Under the pieces are notes generated by a model. That model searched no databases. It saw nothing but the letters and a program-made list of their open reading frames with translations, and had not been told where the DNA came from. 64,000 nt of DNA, taken from NCBI RefSeq assembly GCF_000425645.1, contig NZ_KE384430.1:310001-374000 (forward strand), written 5' to 3'. Of the stretch, positions 31,722-38,227 are shown piece by piece (position 1 is the first letter of the stretch; each line of letters opens with the position of its first letter). This stretch comes from Gaetbulibacter saemankumensis DSM 17032 (GTDB lineage Bacteria > Bacteroidota > Bacteroidia > Flavobacteriales > Flavobacteriaceae). The position numbers and the translations under genes are program-made.

Positions 31722-33554
31722 TTAAGCTAGGACTTTAGAAGCCTCTAATTTAATAACGGCCGATTCAACTTCTAGCCTGAGAATTTCCAATATGTTTTCT
31801 GCTTTATGCAATTCGTTAGAAACCTCTACTTTAATAGAGTAAAAAGAGGTTTGCACTTTTTGGAATAACCCCTGATAATAGGCAACTCCCTGGCTTAGGT
31901 TTTTAATAAAATTGAATAAATATTTTTCATCCTTTTTTGTCATCGACTCTTTTACGTCGTTGATTTTATTAATTAAATAATCTATATAAATATGGAGTTC
32001 TTTAATAAAAAGGTTTGGTCTATATTTAGAATTTAACATATTATCACGTCCGTATATGTGATCTACCATATTTTTCAAACTCATCACTTTTGAATAATAT
32101 GCCATATTTGGTCCAGGACATATAGAAACCCCTGCTCCTTCTGTCCTTGTTTCCAAATTATAAGCTAACAGAGCTGAAGTCCCTAAACCTACACAAGTAC
32201 ATGACTTCTCAATAATTTTATTATACTGTTTCTTATACTCAAGTTCAGAAAGGTCTTGGCTATCTAACTCCTCTAGTTTTAAATGCTGGTACTCTCTTGA
32301 TGCAGTACAAATTCCTTTCTCCTTGAACTCTTTATTAAGCGCCACAAACTTCTTAGGACATGCACTACCAGGTCTTCCTTTAGAAATATTTAACTCCTTC
32401 TCTAAATCTTTTGTATTATTCTTCAGGTTATTAAATGGAATTCCTAGGGGAGAAATATCACTTAAATATAAATCGTCTTCATTGGCTTGAGCTAATTGAT
32501 TTAAAGTATCCCTATCTACTGTCGATGCTTCAGGAACTAATAAAAATGGTGTTCCCCATCCAATGGCGTCTAGCTCATATTCGTTTAATAAAAACTCGTG
32601 CTCTTCATTGGTTCCAACACCACCTTGAGCCGACACATTAAATTGTAATGCACTTGGGGGAATTTCGCGCCCTTGCTGCTCCAATTCCTTTACTATAACA
32701 GCTTCAATAGTCGTTCTTAATTCTTCCCGATTTTCTTTAAATTCAGCTAATACAGGCCCTAAAAGGTACCCATCGGTAGCAAAGGCATGACCTCCGCAAT
32801 TCAACCCAGATTCGATGCGATATTCAGAAACCCATAAGCCCTTTTTAGCTAGAAATTTACCTTGAATTAATGCGGAACGATAATCGCTCACCTTTAAAAT
32901 AATCTTCTTTTTAAACTCGCCTTGTGCATTAGGATAAAAATCGTCGAACTCACTCATGTAAGCATATAATCTCGGATTCATACCCGCCGATAGAACTACA
33001 GAAGCTTCTAAATCACTTTTAGCAAAACCACGTAAAGCTGCATGGGCATCGTTAAATTCCACAGGTAATTGTTCGTCTTTAACATAGTTATCCTTATCGA
33101 CTTTCGTCATGATATTAACATCTATACTTCCCTTTTTTAAATGCTGAGAAGCCCACTGTTTTATCTCAGAAACATGAAATCCCTTTTTCTGAACCAAACT
33201 TTTATATTCTGCCAATAAAGAAGAATTTGAAGGCAAAAGGTTTAGATAAGTTTTTAAAGCTTCACTCTTTTCGTTAGTAACATTTTTTAAAGCCTCAAAG
33301 TTTTTATCAACAAGTTCATTCACTAGATTTAAATAAGAAGTAATACGCTTCGCTCTAAAATCTTCAACTTTTTCTGTTATTTCTTTATACGGCAATTCAA
33401 ATTTTTCACTGTACATCTTTCTAATCTTCTCAATCAAAATATCATCAACTAAAGATATAACAGAGTCTATTCCCAAATGCGCAACTTTTATCGGACTATC
33501 GATAGTAAAACCTATGCCCATTACCGGAATATGAAATGAATGTATTTTATTCAT
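31722..33554 (-). CDS. uncharacterised 610-aa protein, possible nitronate-monooxygenase-like flavin TIM barrel with Cys-rich C-terminal region
   Basis: Not a family I can name with certainty. The start (IPVMGIGFTIDSPIKVAHLG, then GIDSVISLVDD) looks like the first strands of a TIM barrel. Later SAQGGVGTNEEHEFLL (308-323) and LDAIGWGTPFLLVPEA (328-343) resemble the phosphate-binding glycine loops of nitronate monooxygenase/enoyl-reductase-like flavoproteins. A helical insert lies between (about 40-180), and Cys253 sits in LNCGGHAFATDG. Beyond the barrel are five cysteines (399, 416, 452, 454, 479), including SCTCVGLG and GSACPKK, spaced as could hold an Fe-S cluster or metal. The C-terminal 110 residues are helical and coiled-coil-like. 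It stands alone, divergent from ppc. Flavin, cluster and substrate are all inference. Confidence 0.65.
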   Translation of the reverse strand: MNKIHSFHIPVMGIGFTIDSPIKVAHLGIDSVISLVDDILIEKIRKMYSEKFELPYKEITEKVEDFRAKRITSYLNLVNELVDKNFEALKNVTNEKSEALKTYLNLLPSNSSLLAEYKSLVQKKGFHVSEIKQWASQHLKKGSIDVNIMTKVDKDNYVKDEQLPVEFNDAHAALRGFAKSDLEASVVLSAGMNPRLYAYMSEFDDFYPNAQGEFKKKIILKVSDYRSALIQGKFLAKKGLWVSEYRIESGLNCGGHAFATDGYLLGPVLAEFKENREELRTTIEAVIVKELEQQGREIPPSALQFNVSAQGGVGTNEEHEFLLNEYELDAIGWGTPFLLVPEASTVDRDTLNQLAQANEDDLYLSDISPLGIPFNNLKNNTKDLEKELNISKGRPGSACPKKFVALNKEFKEKGICTASREYQHLKLEELDSQDLSELEYKKQYNKIIEKSCTCVGLGTSALLAYNLETRTEGAGVSICPGPNMAYYSKVMSLKNMVDHIYGRDNMLNSKYRPNLFIKELHIYIDYLINKINDVKESMTKKDEKYLFNFIKNLSQGVAYYQGLFQKVQTSFYSIKVEVSNELHKAENILEILRLEVESAVIKLEASKVLA

Positions 33555-33640
33555 CTAAGTTATTTTTTGGTTAAGTGAGCAAAATTATAACATATGCTAC
33601 GGACTAACTATGACATTTATCATACTCCCATAATACGACA

Positions 33641-33845: not shown

Positions 33846-36434
33846 ATGTCAGTAGAGCCAAAATTAGCAAGATTCAAACAAAACGTATTATCGAAGTATC
33901 AAATATACAACAGTATATTTATGACCTTACCTTTCGATACTATTACAAAAACGGGAGTTTTGTTACCACTTTTTCATGAAACATGTAAAAAAGGATTTGC
34001 AAATGGCGATGATCCAACGACCATAGTAGATACATTTTTTAAAAAATACCAAGGCAGACGCTCAAAAGAAAGCCAAATAAACCTCTTGTTCAGATTCATT
34101 CAATATATCGAACGCCAGGTGGTGTTATTCGATGCTGTTGAAGATGCAGCTTTCCCCATTGTAAATAACATGGAAGGTATTGGAACCCTTAGAAACTTAA
34201 AAGAGTCTGCAAATTCTGAAAATCAACTTGAAGCATTAAAAGCCTATTTAGAAGAATTTAAGGTCCGTATAGTTTTAACGGCACATCCAACACAATTTTA
34301 CCCTGGAACAGTACTAGGCATTATAACCGATTTAACCGCTGCAATTAAAAGCAACAACCTTTCGGAAATTAATAACTTATTCGCTCAGTTAGGAAAAACA
34401 CCTTTCTTTAAGCATGAAAAACCTACACCGTACGATGAAGCCATTAGCTTAATTTGGTATTTAGAGAATGTATACTACCAAACCTTTGGTCAAATTTACA
34501 ATTACATTCAACAAAATATTTACGGCGACGGTAAAAAGCATAACGAAATTATCAATTTAGGATTCTGGCCCGGTGGAGATCGCGATGGCAACCCTTTTGT
34601 TAAACCTGATACGACCCTAAAAGTTGCTAAGAAACTAAAACAAGCGGTTCTTAAAAAGTATTATGCCGATTTAAAGCAATTGCGTAGAAAACTAACCTTT
34701 AGAGGGGTTGAAGAACGCGTGATTCGATTAGAAACCATCATGTATAATTATAGTATCGATCTTGAAACACCTGATGCTATAAGTTGCGAAGAATTAATAA
34801 AAGAACTTTTAAGCATTCGAAATGTGGTGGTTAATGAGCACCAATCACTATATGTAAATGAAATTCACAGCTTAATAAACAGAGTTCACTTATTCAGATA
34901 TCATTTCGCAACTCTTGATATTAGACAAGATAGTAGAATCCATCACTCGGTGTTTACAGGCGTTGTTGATCAGCTGATAGAAAAAGGAGACACGATATTC
35001 CCTGCCAATTATCACGAATTATCGGAAGCAGAACAAATTGATATTCTTTCAAAAGTTTCAAATGAAAATTTAGATTTTGATGCTTTCACAGATGAAATGG
35101 TTTACAACACCCTAAAAACGATTGAAGCCATAAAATACATTCAAAAATCGAACGGAGAAAAAGGTGCTAACCGTTACATTATAAGTAATAACCAAACTGC
35201 TTTAAACGTTATGCAACTTTATGCCATGCTTAAAATGGCAGCGTTTAAAGAGGAATTAACTGTTGACATTGTACCGCTTTTTGAAACTATTACCGATTTA
35301 GAAAATGCTCCAAAAGTTATGGAGCAATTATATACAAATCCTGCTTACGCCGCACATTTAAAAAGCCGTGGAAATAAACAAACCATCATGCTAGGATTCT
35401 CTGATGGGACCAAAGATGGTGGTTATTTAATGGCCAACTGGGGCATTTACAAAGCCAAAGAATTACTAACCGAAATGTCACGAAAATATGATGTAACGGC
35501 TATATTCTTTGATGGCCGTGGTGGACCACCAGCACGCGGAGGTGGAAAAACCCACCAGTTCTACGCATCTTTAGGCCCAACTATTGAGGACAAAGAAGTA
35601 CAACTTACTATTCAAGGGCAAACCATTAGCTCTAACTTCGGAACATTAGATTCTGCTCAATATAACATCGAACAACTTATTAGTTCTGGCATTAAGAACA
35701 GCATTGATGGCAGTAAAAATAAAATGTCTGAAGAAGATAAAGTCGTAATGAACGATTTGGCCGTTACCAGCTACGAAGTTTATAAGGACTTTAAAAATCA
35801 CCCAATGTTTATCCCGTATTTAGAGCGTATGAGTACGTTAAAATATTACGCAAAAACCAATATTGGTAGTAGACCTTCAAAACGCTCAAAGTCTGATGAA
35901 TTAATATTTTCAGATTTAAGAGCCATTCCATTTGTAGGGTCATGGAGTCAGTTAAAACAAAACGTTCCTGGCTTCTTTGGCGTTGGTACTGCCTTAAAAA
36001 ACTACGAAGATCGTGGTGAATTTCATAAAGTAGAACAGCTTTATAAAAATTCTAAATTCTTTAAGACCTTACTTGAAAACAGTATGATGTCTCTAACAAA
36101 ATCGTTCTTTGATTTAACCAAATACATGGCTAAAGATGAAGAATTTGGAGAATTCTGGAACATTATTTACACCGAATACGAGAAGACAAAATCTATTTTA
36201 TTAAAGCTTACTGGGTATGAAGAATTAATGGAAAACGAACCTTCTGGAAAAGCTTCAATTGAAGTACGAGAGTCTATTGTTTTACCATTACTTACTATTC
36301 AACAATATGCCTTAAAGAAAATTCAGGAACTTGATAAAGCAGGCGTAAAAGACGGTGAAGAGTTAGAAATATTTGCAAAAATAGTGACACGCTCTTTATT
36401 TGGAAACATTAATGCCAGTAGAAACTCTGCTTAA
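33846..36434 (+). CDS. ppc: phosphoenolpyruvate carboxylase
   Basis: Ppc fixes bicarbonate onto PEP to give oxaloacetate, the main anaplerotic step. The 862-residue protein has the catalytic histidine motif VLTAHPTQFYPGT, the WPGGDRDGNPFV motif, and the glycine-rich mobile loop FDGRGGPPARGGGKT, a Bacteroidota variant of FHGRGGTVGRGG. The active-site GSRPSKR segment follows near TNIGSRPSKRSKSD. The C-terminus ends FGNINASRNSA rather than the usual -NTG, which often occurs in this group and may alter effector binding. It is monocistronic with a terminator downstream. Functionally it would use bicarbonate supplied by the SulP and carbonic anhydrase genes at 47-53 kb. Confidence 0.97.
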   Translation: MSVEPKLARFKQNVLSKYQIYNSIFMTLPFDTITKTGVLLPLFHETCKKGFANGDDPTTIVDTFFKKYQGRRSKESQINLLFRFIQYIERQVVLFDAVEDAAFPIVNNMEGIGTLRNLKESANSENQLEALKAYLEEFKVRIVLTAHPTQFYPGTVLGIITDLTAAIKSNNLSEINNLFAQLGKTPFFKHEKPTPYDEAISLIWYLENVYYQTFGQIYNYIQQNIYGDGKKHNEIINLGFWPGGDRDGNPFVKPDTTLKVAKKLKQAVLKKYYADLKQLRRKLTFRGVEERVIRLETIMYNYSIDLETPDAISCEELIKELLSIRNVVVNEHQSLYVNEIHSLINRVHLFRYHFATLDIRQDSRIHHSVFTGVVDQLIEKGDTIFPANYHELSEAEQIDILSKVSNENLDFDAFTDEMVYNTLKTIEAIKYIQKSNGEKGANRYIISNNQTALNVMQLYAMLKMAAFKEELTVDIVPLFETITDLENAPKVMEQLYTNPAYAAHLKSRGNKQTIMLGFSDGTKDGGYLMANWGIYKAKELLTEMSRKYDVTAIFFDGRGGPPARGGGKTHQFYASLGPTIEDKEVQLTIQGQTISSNFGTLDSAQYNIEQLISSGIKNSIDGSKNKMSEEDKVVMNDLAVTSYEVYKDFKNHPMFIPYLERMSTLKYYAKTNIGSRPSKRSKSDELIFSDLRAIPFVGSWSQLKQNVPGFFGVGTALKNYEDRGEFHKVEQLYKNSKFFKTLLENSMMSLTKSFFDLTKYMAKDEEFGEFWNIIYTEYEKTKSILLKLTGYEELMENEPSGKASIEVRESIVLPLLTIQQYALKKIQELDKAGVKDGEELEIFAKIVTRSLFGNINASRNSA

Positions 36435-36619: not shown

Positions 36620-37861
36620 TTAATGCTCATTCAATCTAAAATCAGGATACGCATCCATACCATGCTCATGTCCATCTAAACCTTCTAATTCTTCACGTTC
36701 CGAAACTCTAATACCCATTGTTTTCTTTAAAGTATATATAATTACGAATGCTGAAACTATGCATATAGCAGCATAAGAAGCAACACCTATTAACTGACTT
36801 ATAAACTGATCAACTCCAGCAAGATTTCCAAAGATTCCAACCGCTAAAGTTCCCCAAATACCGCACACTAAATGCACAGCTATAGCACCAACGGGATCGT
36901 CCAATTTCAATTTATTATCAACGAAACTAACCGCCAAAACAATTAAAGCACCTGCAACTGCACCGATTATAATAGCATCTGTTGGGCTCATTTGGTCAGC
37001 ACCCGCAGTAATACCGACTAAACCACCTAATATACCATTTAGAAACATTGTTAAGTCTAGATTCTTATACATAGCGGTAGACACTAGCATCGCTACAACT
37101 CCACCAGCGGCTGCAGCCAAACATGTGGTCACTAAAGTTAATGATGTTAAGGTCGGATCGGCAGACAACACAGAGCCTCCATTAAATCCAAACCATCCTA
37201 ACCATAAGATTAATACACCAGCTGTAGCCATAGGAATATTATGTCCTGGAATAGCCTGTGGTTTTCCATCTTTAAATTTACCTATTCTTGCTCCTAATAA
37301 ACAAACAGCAACTACAGCAGCCCATCCACCAACTGAATGCACTAGCGTTGAACCTGCAAAATCATAGAATGGAGTTTCTAACATATCTAAAAAGCCACCT
37401 CCCCATTTCCAAGAACCAGCAATAGGATACACAAACCCTACATATACAACGGTAAATATCATAAAAGGTAAAATCTTAATACGCTCGGCTACCGCACCTG
37501 AAACAATAGTCGCTGCTGTTGCGGCGAACATCCCCTGAAATAAGAAATCTGTCCAATAGGTATAACCTTCGTTATATGTTAAATCTAACACTCCATCAAC
37601 AGTAGGTGAATCTAACCCAAACCCGGCAAATCCAAATATTCCTGAAGAACCTTCTGCAAAACCAGGGTACATTAAATTAAACCCTACCAAACAGTACAAT
37701 AATAGACCTATGGTAATAATAAAAATGTTTTTAAATAATATATTGATTGTATTTTTTTGTCTTGTTAATCCAATTTCCAAAAATGCAAATCCTAAATGCA
37801 TGAAGAAAACTAGTGCTGTACAGATCATCATCCATACATTATTTGTTGTAAGTAATTCCAT
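36620..37861 (-). CDS. amt: ammonium transporter, 413-aa paralogue
   Basis: An inner-membrane Amt/Rh channel for ammonium uptake, with about 11 membrane segments. The pore twin histidines lie in STLVHSVGGWAAVV and IAVHLVCGIWGTLAV. Other Amt signatures are LIWAGWFGFNGGS-like LILWLGWFGFNGGSVLS and the aromatic gate region. The C-terminal tail, which docks on PII, reads LRVSEREELEGLDG-like with GIRVSEREELEGLDGHEHG. It lies 27 bp downstream of the PII gene, so the pair is the classic glnK-amt unit. It is clearly paralogous to the amt at 38376, but the sequences differ throughout. Confidence 0.96.
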   Translation of the reverse strand: MELLTTNNVWMMICTALVFFMHLGFAFLEIGLTRQKNTINILFKNIFIITIGLLLYCLVGFNLMYPGFAEGSSGIFGFAGFGLDSPTVDGVLDLTYNEGYTYWTDFLFQGMFAATAATIVSGAVAERIKILPFMIFTVVYVGFVYPIAGSWKWGGGFLDMLETPFYDFAGSTLVHSVGGWAAVVAVCLLGARIGKFKDGKPQAIPGHNIPMATAGVLILWLGWFGFNGGSVLSADPTLTSLTLVTTCLAAAAGGVVAMLVSTAMYKNLDLTMFLNGILGGLVGITAGADQMSPTDAIIIGAVAGALIVLAVSFVDNKLKLDDPVGAIAVHLVCGIWGTLAVGIFGNLAGVDQFISQLIGVASYAAICIVSAFVIIYTLKKTMGIRVSEREELEGLDGHEHGMDAYPDFRLNEH

Positions 37862-37888
37862 AATAATTATTTAATAATTAGTTGCTTG

Positions 37889-38227
37889 TTATTTTAAAGT
37901 ATCTCCTCCCTTTTCTCCTGTCCTTATTCTGTAACATTCATCTATAGTGGAAACAAATATCTTACCATCTCCTACTTCCCCTGTTGCAGCTGAATTTAAA
38001 ATTGCTTTAATAGTTACCTCTTCAAAATCATCATTCACGACAATAGATAAATATCGACGCTGAATATCACTAGTGCTATAAGAAATTCCTCTGTAAACAT
38101 GCCCTTCTTTCTCATTACCTAATCCAGTAACATCCCAGTAAGAAAAAAAGTTTACCCCTACTTCGTGTAAAGCGTCTTTAACCGCGCGAAATTTTGACTT
38201 TCTAATAATTGCTTCAATTCTTTTCAT
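37889..38227 (-). CDS. glnB: PII-family nitrogen regulatory protein
   Basis: A 112-residue PII signal protein that senses 2-oxoglutarate and adenylate charge and gates Amt channels. The T-loop contains GHVYRGISYSTSD, with Tyr50 at the place of the classic uridylylated Tyr51. The B-loop is TGEVGDGKIFV and the C-loop is CYRIRTGEKGGD. The T-loop base differs from proteobacterial GlnB/GlnK (STSDIQRRYLSIVV rather than a FLPK segment), as is usual in this phylum. It is sandwiched between two amt genes on one strand, and so is positioned to control both by direct plugging. Confidence 0.95.
   Translation of the reverse strand: MKRIEAIIRKSKFRAVKDALHEVGVNFFSYWDVTGLGNEKEGHVYRGISYSTSDIQRRYLSIVVNDDFEEVTIKAILNSAATGEVGDGKIFVSTIDECYRIRTGEKGGDTLK

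Follow-up and report, generated by a model that had tools for sequence, protein, structure and literature searches.

The window, a 64,000-nucleotide stretch of DNA, carries on its minus strand a coding sequence (31722–33554) whose open reading frame yields a protein of 610 amino acids, while the opposite strand contains 52 stops over the same interval. The gene is divergent from ppc (33846–36434, plus strand), so that its initial annotation as a single gene opposite ppc holds true at this locus, and nadA-nadB follow downstream on the same strand, with 224 bp between the gene and nadA (these gene names were assigned by eye). Past ppc, at positions 36620–38227 and beyond, lie two further genes recognised by eye, one for an ammonium transporter and one for a PII-type protein; of 118 loci, 31 to 39 have ammonium transporter, PII-type, porin-like and glutamate-synthase-like open reading frames close to the gene. 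The gene and its upstream region comprise the following features:

31722–33554, minus strand: coding sequence (with its stop codon) for the 610-aa FabX-like protein
33444–33554, minus strand: start of the predicted barrel, residues 1–37 (HIPVMGIG), from the secondary structure of the model
33129–33443, minus strand: mostly helical insert, residues 38–142, most of it opposite a gap in FabX (model; permissive local alignment)
33096–33128, minus strand: SIDVNIMTKVD, residues 143–153, in which N147 pairs with the FabX segment holding N99 (profile alignment, conservation; PMC8626469)
32769–32819, minus strand: RIESGLNCGGHAFATDG, residues 246–262, with E248, C253 and H256, equivalent of the GGH catalytic-histidine motif of FabX and nitronate monooxygenase (conservation, profile alignment)
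32529–32636, minus strand: QGGVGT...GWGTPFLLVPE, residues 307–342, predicted FMN-phosphate side of the barrel (profile alignments, conservation)
32025–32519, minus strand: cysteine-rich subdomain, residues 346–510 (C399, C416, C452, C454, C479), proposed [4Fe-4S] site (conservation, model, structural alignment)
31728–32012, minus strand: predicted C-terminal three-helix bundle, residues 515–609, past the FabX match (models, structural alignment)
33580–33587, minus strand: TAATTTTG, putative -7 box
33610–33623, unstranded: Crp/Fnr-like palindrome ATGATAAATGTCAT, 55 bp from its end to the start codon

The open reading frame is a real gene, as it belongs to a conserved family that we found in 27 of the 60 nearest genomes and in 142 of 395 genomes across Bacteroidota, about a third of those sampled (both counts include the window's own genome), nearly always as a single copy. 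Among named genome contigs, 460 stretches fitted a search pattern and 426 of them code for a relative; the best 80 of these 426 are from Bacteroidota by record title, except for one MAG labelled Chlorobiota (L040), and the nearest named relatives among them are Flavobacteriaceae, such as Mariniflexile (74%). Identity falls to 41% within an alignment of 57 diverse members. For the analysis of conservation, three short loci (L094, L154 and L167) were removed from 167 homologue loci and identical sequences were merged, leaving 154 distinct sequences. The five C-terminal cysteines, which lie exactly at the initially reported positions 399, 416, 452, 454 and 479, proved invariant in all 154, as did a sixth, Cys253, within LNCGGH, and no further column holds cysteine in more than 30% of the sequences. 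N147, K151, D153, E248, GGH (254–256), QGG (310–312), GW (332–333), SPLG (368–371) and CPGPN (479–483) are likewise invariant (154/154). The glycine motifs SAQGGVGT (308–315) and GWGTPFLLVPEA (332–343), from which a flavin-type barrel had been proposed, are both present, and LNCGGHAFATDG occupies residues 251–262.

No model for the family turned up in Pfam or NCBIfam as searched. The profile search suggested in the initial annotation gave no significant Pfam or NCBIfam match for the window protein or for the 57 members, and a PDB sequence search returned no significant relative. PF03060, the nitronate monooxygenase model, did not match the window protein at E ≤10 and is missing among the 25 of 55 families listed for the 57 members. 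Matches to CPW_WPC, NF001645, an HP0895-family antitoxin, myoglobin and apolipoprotein were rejected, being far below curated cut-offs or at E >0.01, and look like chance. A tblastn search of plasmids and phages found no homologue, and a literature search, conducted without most subscription journals, found no published description of the family.

We then compared the predicted structure with solved folds. The AlphaFold2 model, built with 57 aligned members, is a TIM barrel (mean pLDDT 92.5, pTM 0.92) in which pLDDT falls below 50 over at least three residues only at 255–257, within the GGH catalytic loop. Foldseek placed Helicobacter pylori FabX at ranks 1–3 (best E 4.2e-10), with PfaD nearly equal (E 2.5e-9). 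When the Foldseek matches were aligned with VIA-align 2, however, the five FabX entries reached Z 28.5–29.6, clearly above FabK, PfaD and nitronate monooxygenase, all at 24.1 or lower (FabK and PfaD about 20–24, nitronate monooxygenase-type structures 19.4–23.5). The best FabX alignment (Z 29.6, rmsd 3.1, 19–20% identity) covers 336 of 363 FabX residues and spans model residues 1 to 503. Since the cluster subdomain of FabX comprises residues 267–363 (PMC8626469), at least 75 aligned residues must lie within it. The structure that extends beyond FabX consists of the helical insert, which covers about residues 38–142 and is about 105 residues long instead of the 140 first noted, and the three-helix bundle at 515–609. 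When residues 346–610 were modelled on their own, the matches listed for this model were all helix bundles, with FabX not among them; it is thus the structural alignment of the full-length model that carries the correspondence of the cysteine subdomains. The Fe–S cluster suggested earlier is plausible, given that the closest solved structure is the [4Fe-4S] enzyme FabX and that the alignment extends into its cluster subdomain. In the proposed comparison with nitronate monooxygenase, FabK and PfaD, FabX stood above all three by VIA-align 2, and neither of the two outcomes that would have spoken against the initial reading, a model lacking the TIM barrel or cysteines that vary among homologues, occurred. 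The statement that no characterised enzyme has this layout finds no support, as FabX combines the barrel, the GGH motif and a C-terminal cysteine subdomain.

FabX (HP0773, PDB 7E1Q/9LT5) is an acyl-ACP dehydrogenase/isomerase with FMN and a [4Fe-4S] cluster, and its likeness to the family in barrel, FMN-type motifs, GGH histidine and cysteine subdomain would extend to a low-oxygen role. To compare the sequences, FabX orthologues were taken from the family of G402, one of which gives E 1e-74 against H. pylori FabX; the alignment of the orthologue shows its cysteine pairing with C300/C304/C308/C320. At the level of sequence, the relationship to FabX is weak. By hhalign, the target family matched nine FabX sequences at E 0.0013 (probability 18.5%), compared with E 0.096 for a FabK-like group and E 0.035 for another nitronate monooxygenase-type group; BLASTP of the target against FabX gave E 0.13. 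The aligned segments (target/FabX) are, in order, GSIDVNIM/GIIGVNVM, IESGLNCGGH/VLEGPKAGGH, QGGVGTNEEH/AGGIYTGEDI, GWGTPFL/QLGTRFV and SPLGIP/SPVGMP. Since they fall in order, LNCGGHAFATDG, initially described as isolated, corresponds to the GGH motif of the nitronate monooxygenase superfamily, which in FabX holds the catalytic histidine H182 (PMC8626469), and the invariant H256 (154/154) is aligned with this residue. The default alignment ends at residue 380, ahead of the C-terminal cysteines. A GSACP/PKSCP pairing was seen only under permissive local settings, in which C399 with FabX C300 is the only clear match and C454 with C320 is a hand reading, so that no reliable pairing of individual cysteine ligands was obtained; global hhalign, whether full-length or confined to the cysteine region, did not produce a usable alignment.

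The FMN-contacting residues agree only in part. N147 and E248, both invariant, align with the FabX contacts N99 (a side-chain contact according to PMC8626469) and E175, E248 being one residue farther from the histidine. At the contacts Q240 and T243, Gln240 is replaced by Gly332 and position 335 is Ser or Thr, and Met241 of FabX corresponds to W333. The residue preceding GGH is Cys253 in the target, whereas it is Ala or Ser in the FabX sequences compared. Furthermore, FabX has about 363 residues against 610, the target adding the insert and the C-terminal bundle, and in place of the C-x3-C-x3-C-x11-C motif of FabX, which is not present, the five cysteines are spaced C-x16-C-x35-C-x-C-x24-C. 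Because the defining cysteine motif of FabX fails, we do not file the family as FabX but regard it as a separate, unnamed family of Bacteroidota, for which a FabX-like mode of action is the most likely one, at about an even chance.

The region upstream of the gene, with its low-oxygen site and the related genomic context, was absent from the initial annotation and is added by the present analysis. The Bacteroidetes -7 box has the consensus TAnnTTTG, which TAATTTTG resembles; if the start site is guessed from it, the centre of the palindrome ATGATAAATGTCAT would lie about 42 bp upstream, the usual place of a Crp/Fnr activator. Among the upstream regions of the family, ATGA-N6-TCAT is the most enriched palindrome with 4-base half-sites, occurring in 69 of 155 against 2 in mononucleotide shuffles; the true figure is 68 of 154 distinct regions, because the window was counted twice. 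The corresponding count for control genes close to these loci is 27 of 1057, a rate lowered by the many control regions that sit inside operons. The site begins 61–90 bp ahead of the start codon in 51 of the 69. Many site-bearing loci come from close relatives, and we also counted the 57 diverse representatives, among which the site is rarer: 11 have ATGA-N6-TCAT and 18 have TGAY-N4-RTCA, the latter against 42 of 1057 controls (p 4e-12). None of the 155 upstream regions contains the classical TTGA-N6-TCAA box.

Within the 64 kb, 33610–33623 is the sole perfect ATGAYNNNNRTCAT, but its presence alone is not striking, since 0.27 such sites are expected and 25 of 100 shuffles contained at least one. 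The window's genome has 29 perfect sites, against 21 of the reversed pattern; 12 are inside open reading frames and 17 upstream of one. The site-bearing genes include hemN (O2-independent coproporphyrinogen oxidase) and the cbb3 oxidase gene ccoN (site 248 bp away), both textbook low-oxygen targets, as well as those for an adenosylcobalamin-dependent (class II) ribonucleotide reductase, pta, pyruvate phosphate dikinase and malate dehydrogenase; several others show no evident low-oxygen role. The TGAY-N4-RTCA palindrome upstream of the target is thus common to known low-oxygen genes of the genome; the palindrome-bearing genes form a candidate regulon, and its regulator would be of the Crp/Fnr type. 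At L265, L270, L273, L275, L279 and L281 of this genome, the palindrome precedes genes for CBS-domain proteins, an alginate-export-type porin and a DASS transporter, as well as for proteins that look YceI-like by eye.

We also examined the genomic neighbourhood, where gene identities come from testing a single member per gene cluster and extending the name to the others, NosF and NosY being recognised by eye. Among 118 loci with readable flanks, nadA is nearby in 51 and ppc in 49, which is the ordinary Flavobacteriaceae setting; in distant genomes the neighbours are mostly unrelated among the loci listed. In a minority of the 118, low-oxygen genes lie within 7 open reading frames: Rrf2 in 19, nrdD-like in 9, norD-like in 7 and nosY-like in 5. 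At L092 and L096, the target follows nosZ, an unnamed gene, nosL, nosD, nosF and nosY on the same strand, with a gap after nosY of 167 bp and 11 bp, respectively; at L054, 11 bp separate it from the preceding nor/nos gene. It follows norQ, norD, norC and norB at L058 and L079 (gaps of 291 and 431 bp), with an Rrf2 gene next to it on the other strand at L058, and sits between moaA and norQ at L083 and L086. Across the phylum, nosZ exceeds its cut-off in 68 of 142 target genomes versus 59 of 253 others (odds ratio 3.0, p 1e-6, a p value that ignores shared ancestry), and lies within 15 kb of the target in 19 of the 68 genomes holding both, of which family f38 accounts for 14 and three further families for five. 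The window's genome has nosZ 93 kb away from the target and gave no match for nrdD. A link to nrdD, suggested by its closeness to the target in certain Flavobacteriaceae, fails across the phylum, where the target occurs in 10 of 26 nrdD genomes (p 0.83, again ignoring shared ancestry).

FA_desaturase-family enzymes are O2-dependent, and two matches to this family are over the cut-off in the window's genome. Of the O2-independent enzymes of unsaturated fatty acid synthesis, the two looked for were FabA and FabX: the FabA model scored far below its cut-off (38.8 of 238 bits), and the FabX profile gave no match at E ≤1e-60. The target is found in none of five FabX-holding genomes, but mutual exclusion was rejected as not significant, because 0/5 has a chance probability of about 0.1.

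Since the gene encodes a protein of FabX fold and has an upstream site in common with genes for enzymes that make heme and deoxynucleotides independently of O2, the simplest reading is an O2-independent enzyme of unsaturated fatty acid synthesis that works like FabX, a function we consider evenly poised between right and wrong. A FabX homologue of Neisseria gonorrhoeae, NGO1024, is named UfaA. This protein, known here by description, has the same anaerobic setting and proposed role, in anaerobic unsaturated fatty acid synthesis, and shares about 36% identity with a Bacteroidales FabX (PMC11300592); another FabX homologue is described in Fusobacterium (PMC11091888). From the computed fold, invariant residues, genomic linkage and common upstream site, we infer the cofactors, substrate, direction, electron acceptor and regulator as follows. 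Like FabX and NGO1024, the protein would be a cytoplasmic enzyme dependent on FMN and [4Fe-4S], which at low oxygen would dehydrogenate a medium-chain acyl-ACP and isomerise it to the cis-3-enoyl form, yielding unsaturated fatty acids without an O2-dependent desaturase. The acyl-ACP would enter the barrel, where His256, perhaps with Cys253, would take the alpha proton; the hydride would pass to FMN and one electron would be parked on the Fe–S cluster, with four of Cys399/416/452/454/479 as its ligands. FabX requires O2 in vitro (PMC8626469), and here the electrons would leave to a non-O2 acceptor. A Crp/Fnr-type regulator would turn the gene on as oxygen falls.

It is somewhat doubtful, yet well worth entertaining, that facultatively anaerobic Bacteroidota thus possess an unrecognised O2-independent unsaturated-fatty-acid synthase, namely a new family, only distantly related to FabX, that has a cysteine in the active site, a five-cysteine cluster site and an anaerobic electron acceptor. 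If so, the family, HemN and the class II ribonucleotide reductase would complete a regulon whose enzymes stand in for biosynthetic steps that need O2, and the enzyme would explain the membrane fluidity of low-oxygen Bacteroidota, many of them nosZ carriers, when O2-dependent desaturases cannot work. It would also show that the FabX barrel can carry a second arrangement of cysteines, and would have a bearing on the electron acceptors of FabX-type enzymes without oxygen.

A possible but less probable reading is a FabX-fold FMN/Fe–S enzyme of the low-oxygen regulon that acts on another substrate, such as a different acyl-ACP or acyl-CoA, a quinone or cofactor precursor, or an oxidised metabolite. 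What was computed is the fold, the cofactor-type residues and the association, and the active site differs from that of FabX at C253, G332 and W333. In addition, no fab gene adjoins the target among the neighbours listed and read by eye, a FabH-like protein (by eye) lying 6–7 open reading frames away in four loci. However, the closest structure is that of an acyl-ACP enzyme, and neither FabA nor FabX, the two enzymes looked for, is over threshold in the genome.

The family is unlikely to be an enoyl-ACP reductase of the FabK/PfaD kind that works in the reducing direction at low oxygen, with Cys253 as the proton donor. Such enzymes share the barrel and the FMN-type motifs, PfaD has helical additions too and is nearly level with FabX by Foldseek, VIA-align 2 ranks FabK and PfaD next after FabX, and the invariant cysteine beside the catalytic histidine could give a proton. 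Nevertheless, FabX scored clearly higher by VIA-align 2, and NMO/FabK-family proteins already exist in the genome. FabK has an NAD(P)H-binding C-terminal region where FabX has its cluster domain; the FabK-like profile match is not significant, and the FabK-like set A3 does not have a conserved C-terminal cysteine cluster. Least probable of all is a nitronate monooxygenase or an enzyme that detoxifies nitrosative stress to guard denitrifying cells, since, despite the superfamily fold with its GGH and GG motifs and the nor/nos, Rrf2 and ScdA genes at some loci, 74 of 142 target genomes have no nosZ over the cut-off, nitronate monooxygenase uses O2 and so fits a low-oxygen gene poorly, and the lack of a PF03060 match at E ≤10 (a model that does not include the cysteine subdomain) together with the lower Z led us to reject a nitronate monooxygenase proper.

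Several individual sequences deserve mention. In L185 (region 456–2430), the minus-strand open reading frame 1456–2430 encodes a nitronate monooxygenase-family protein with ECGGH, in which a cysteine precedes GGH as in the target. The gene in L094, an Arenibacter record, yields a frame of only 339 aa and thus looks truncated or frame-shifted in the assembly. A second gene copy in L167 (G053:C1:4371173-4372904) is broken, lying in pieces with stops, whereas the copy at G053:C1:15225-16991 is intact, and G208 has two gene copies, both free of stops.
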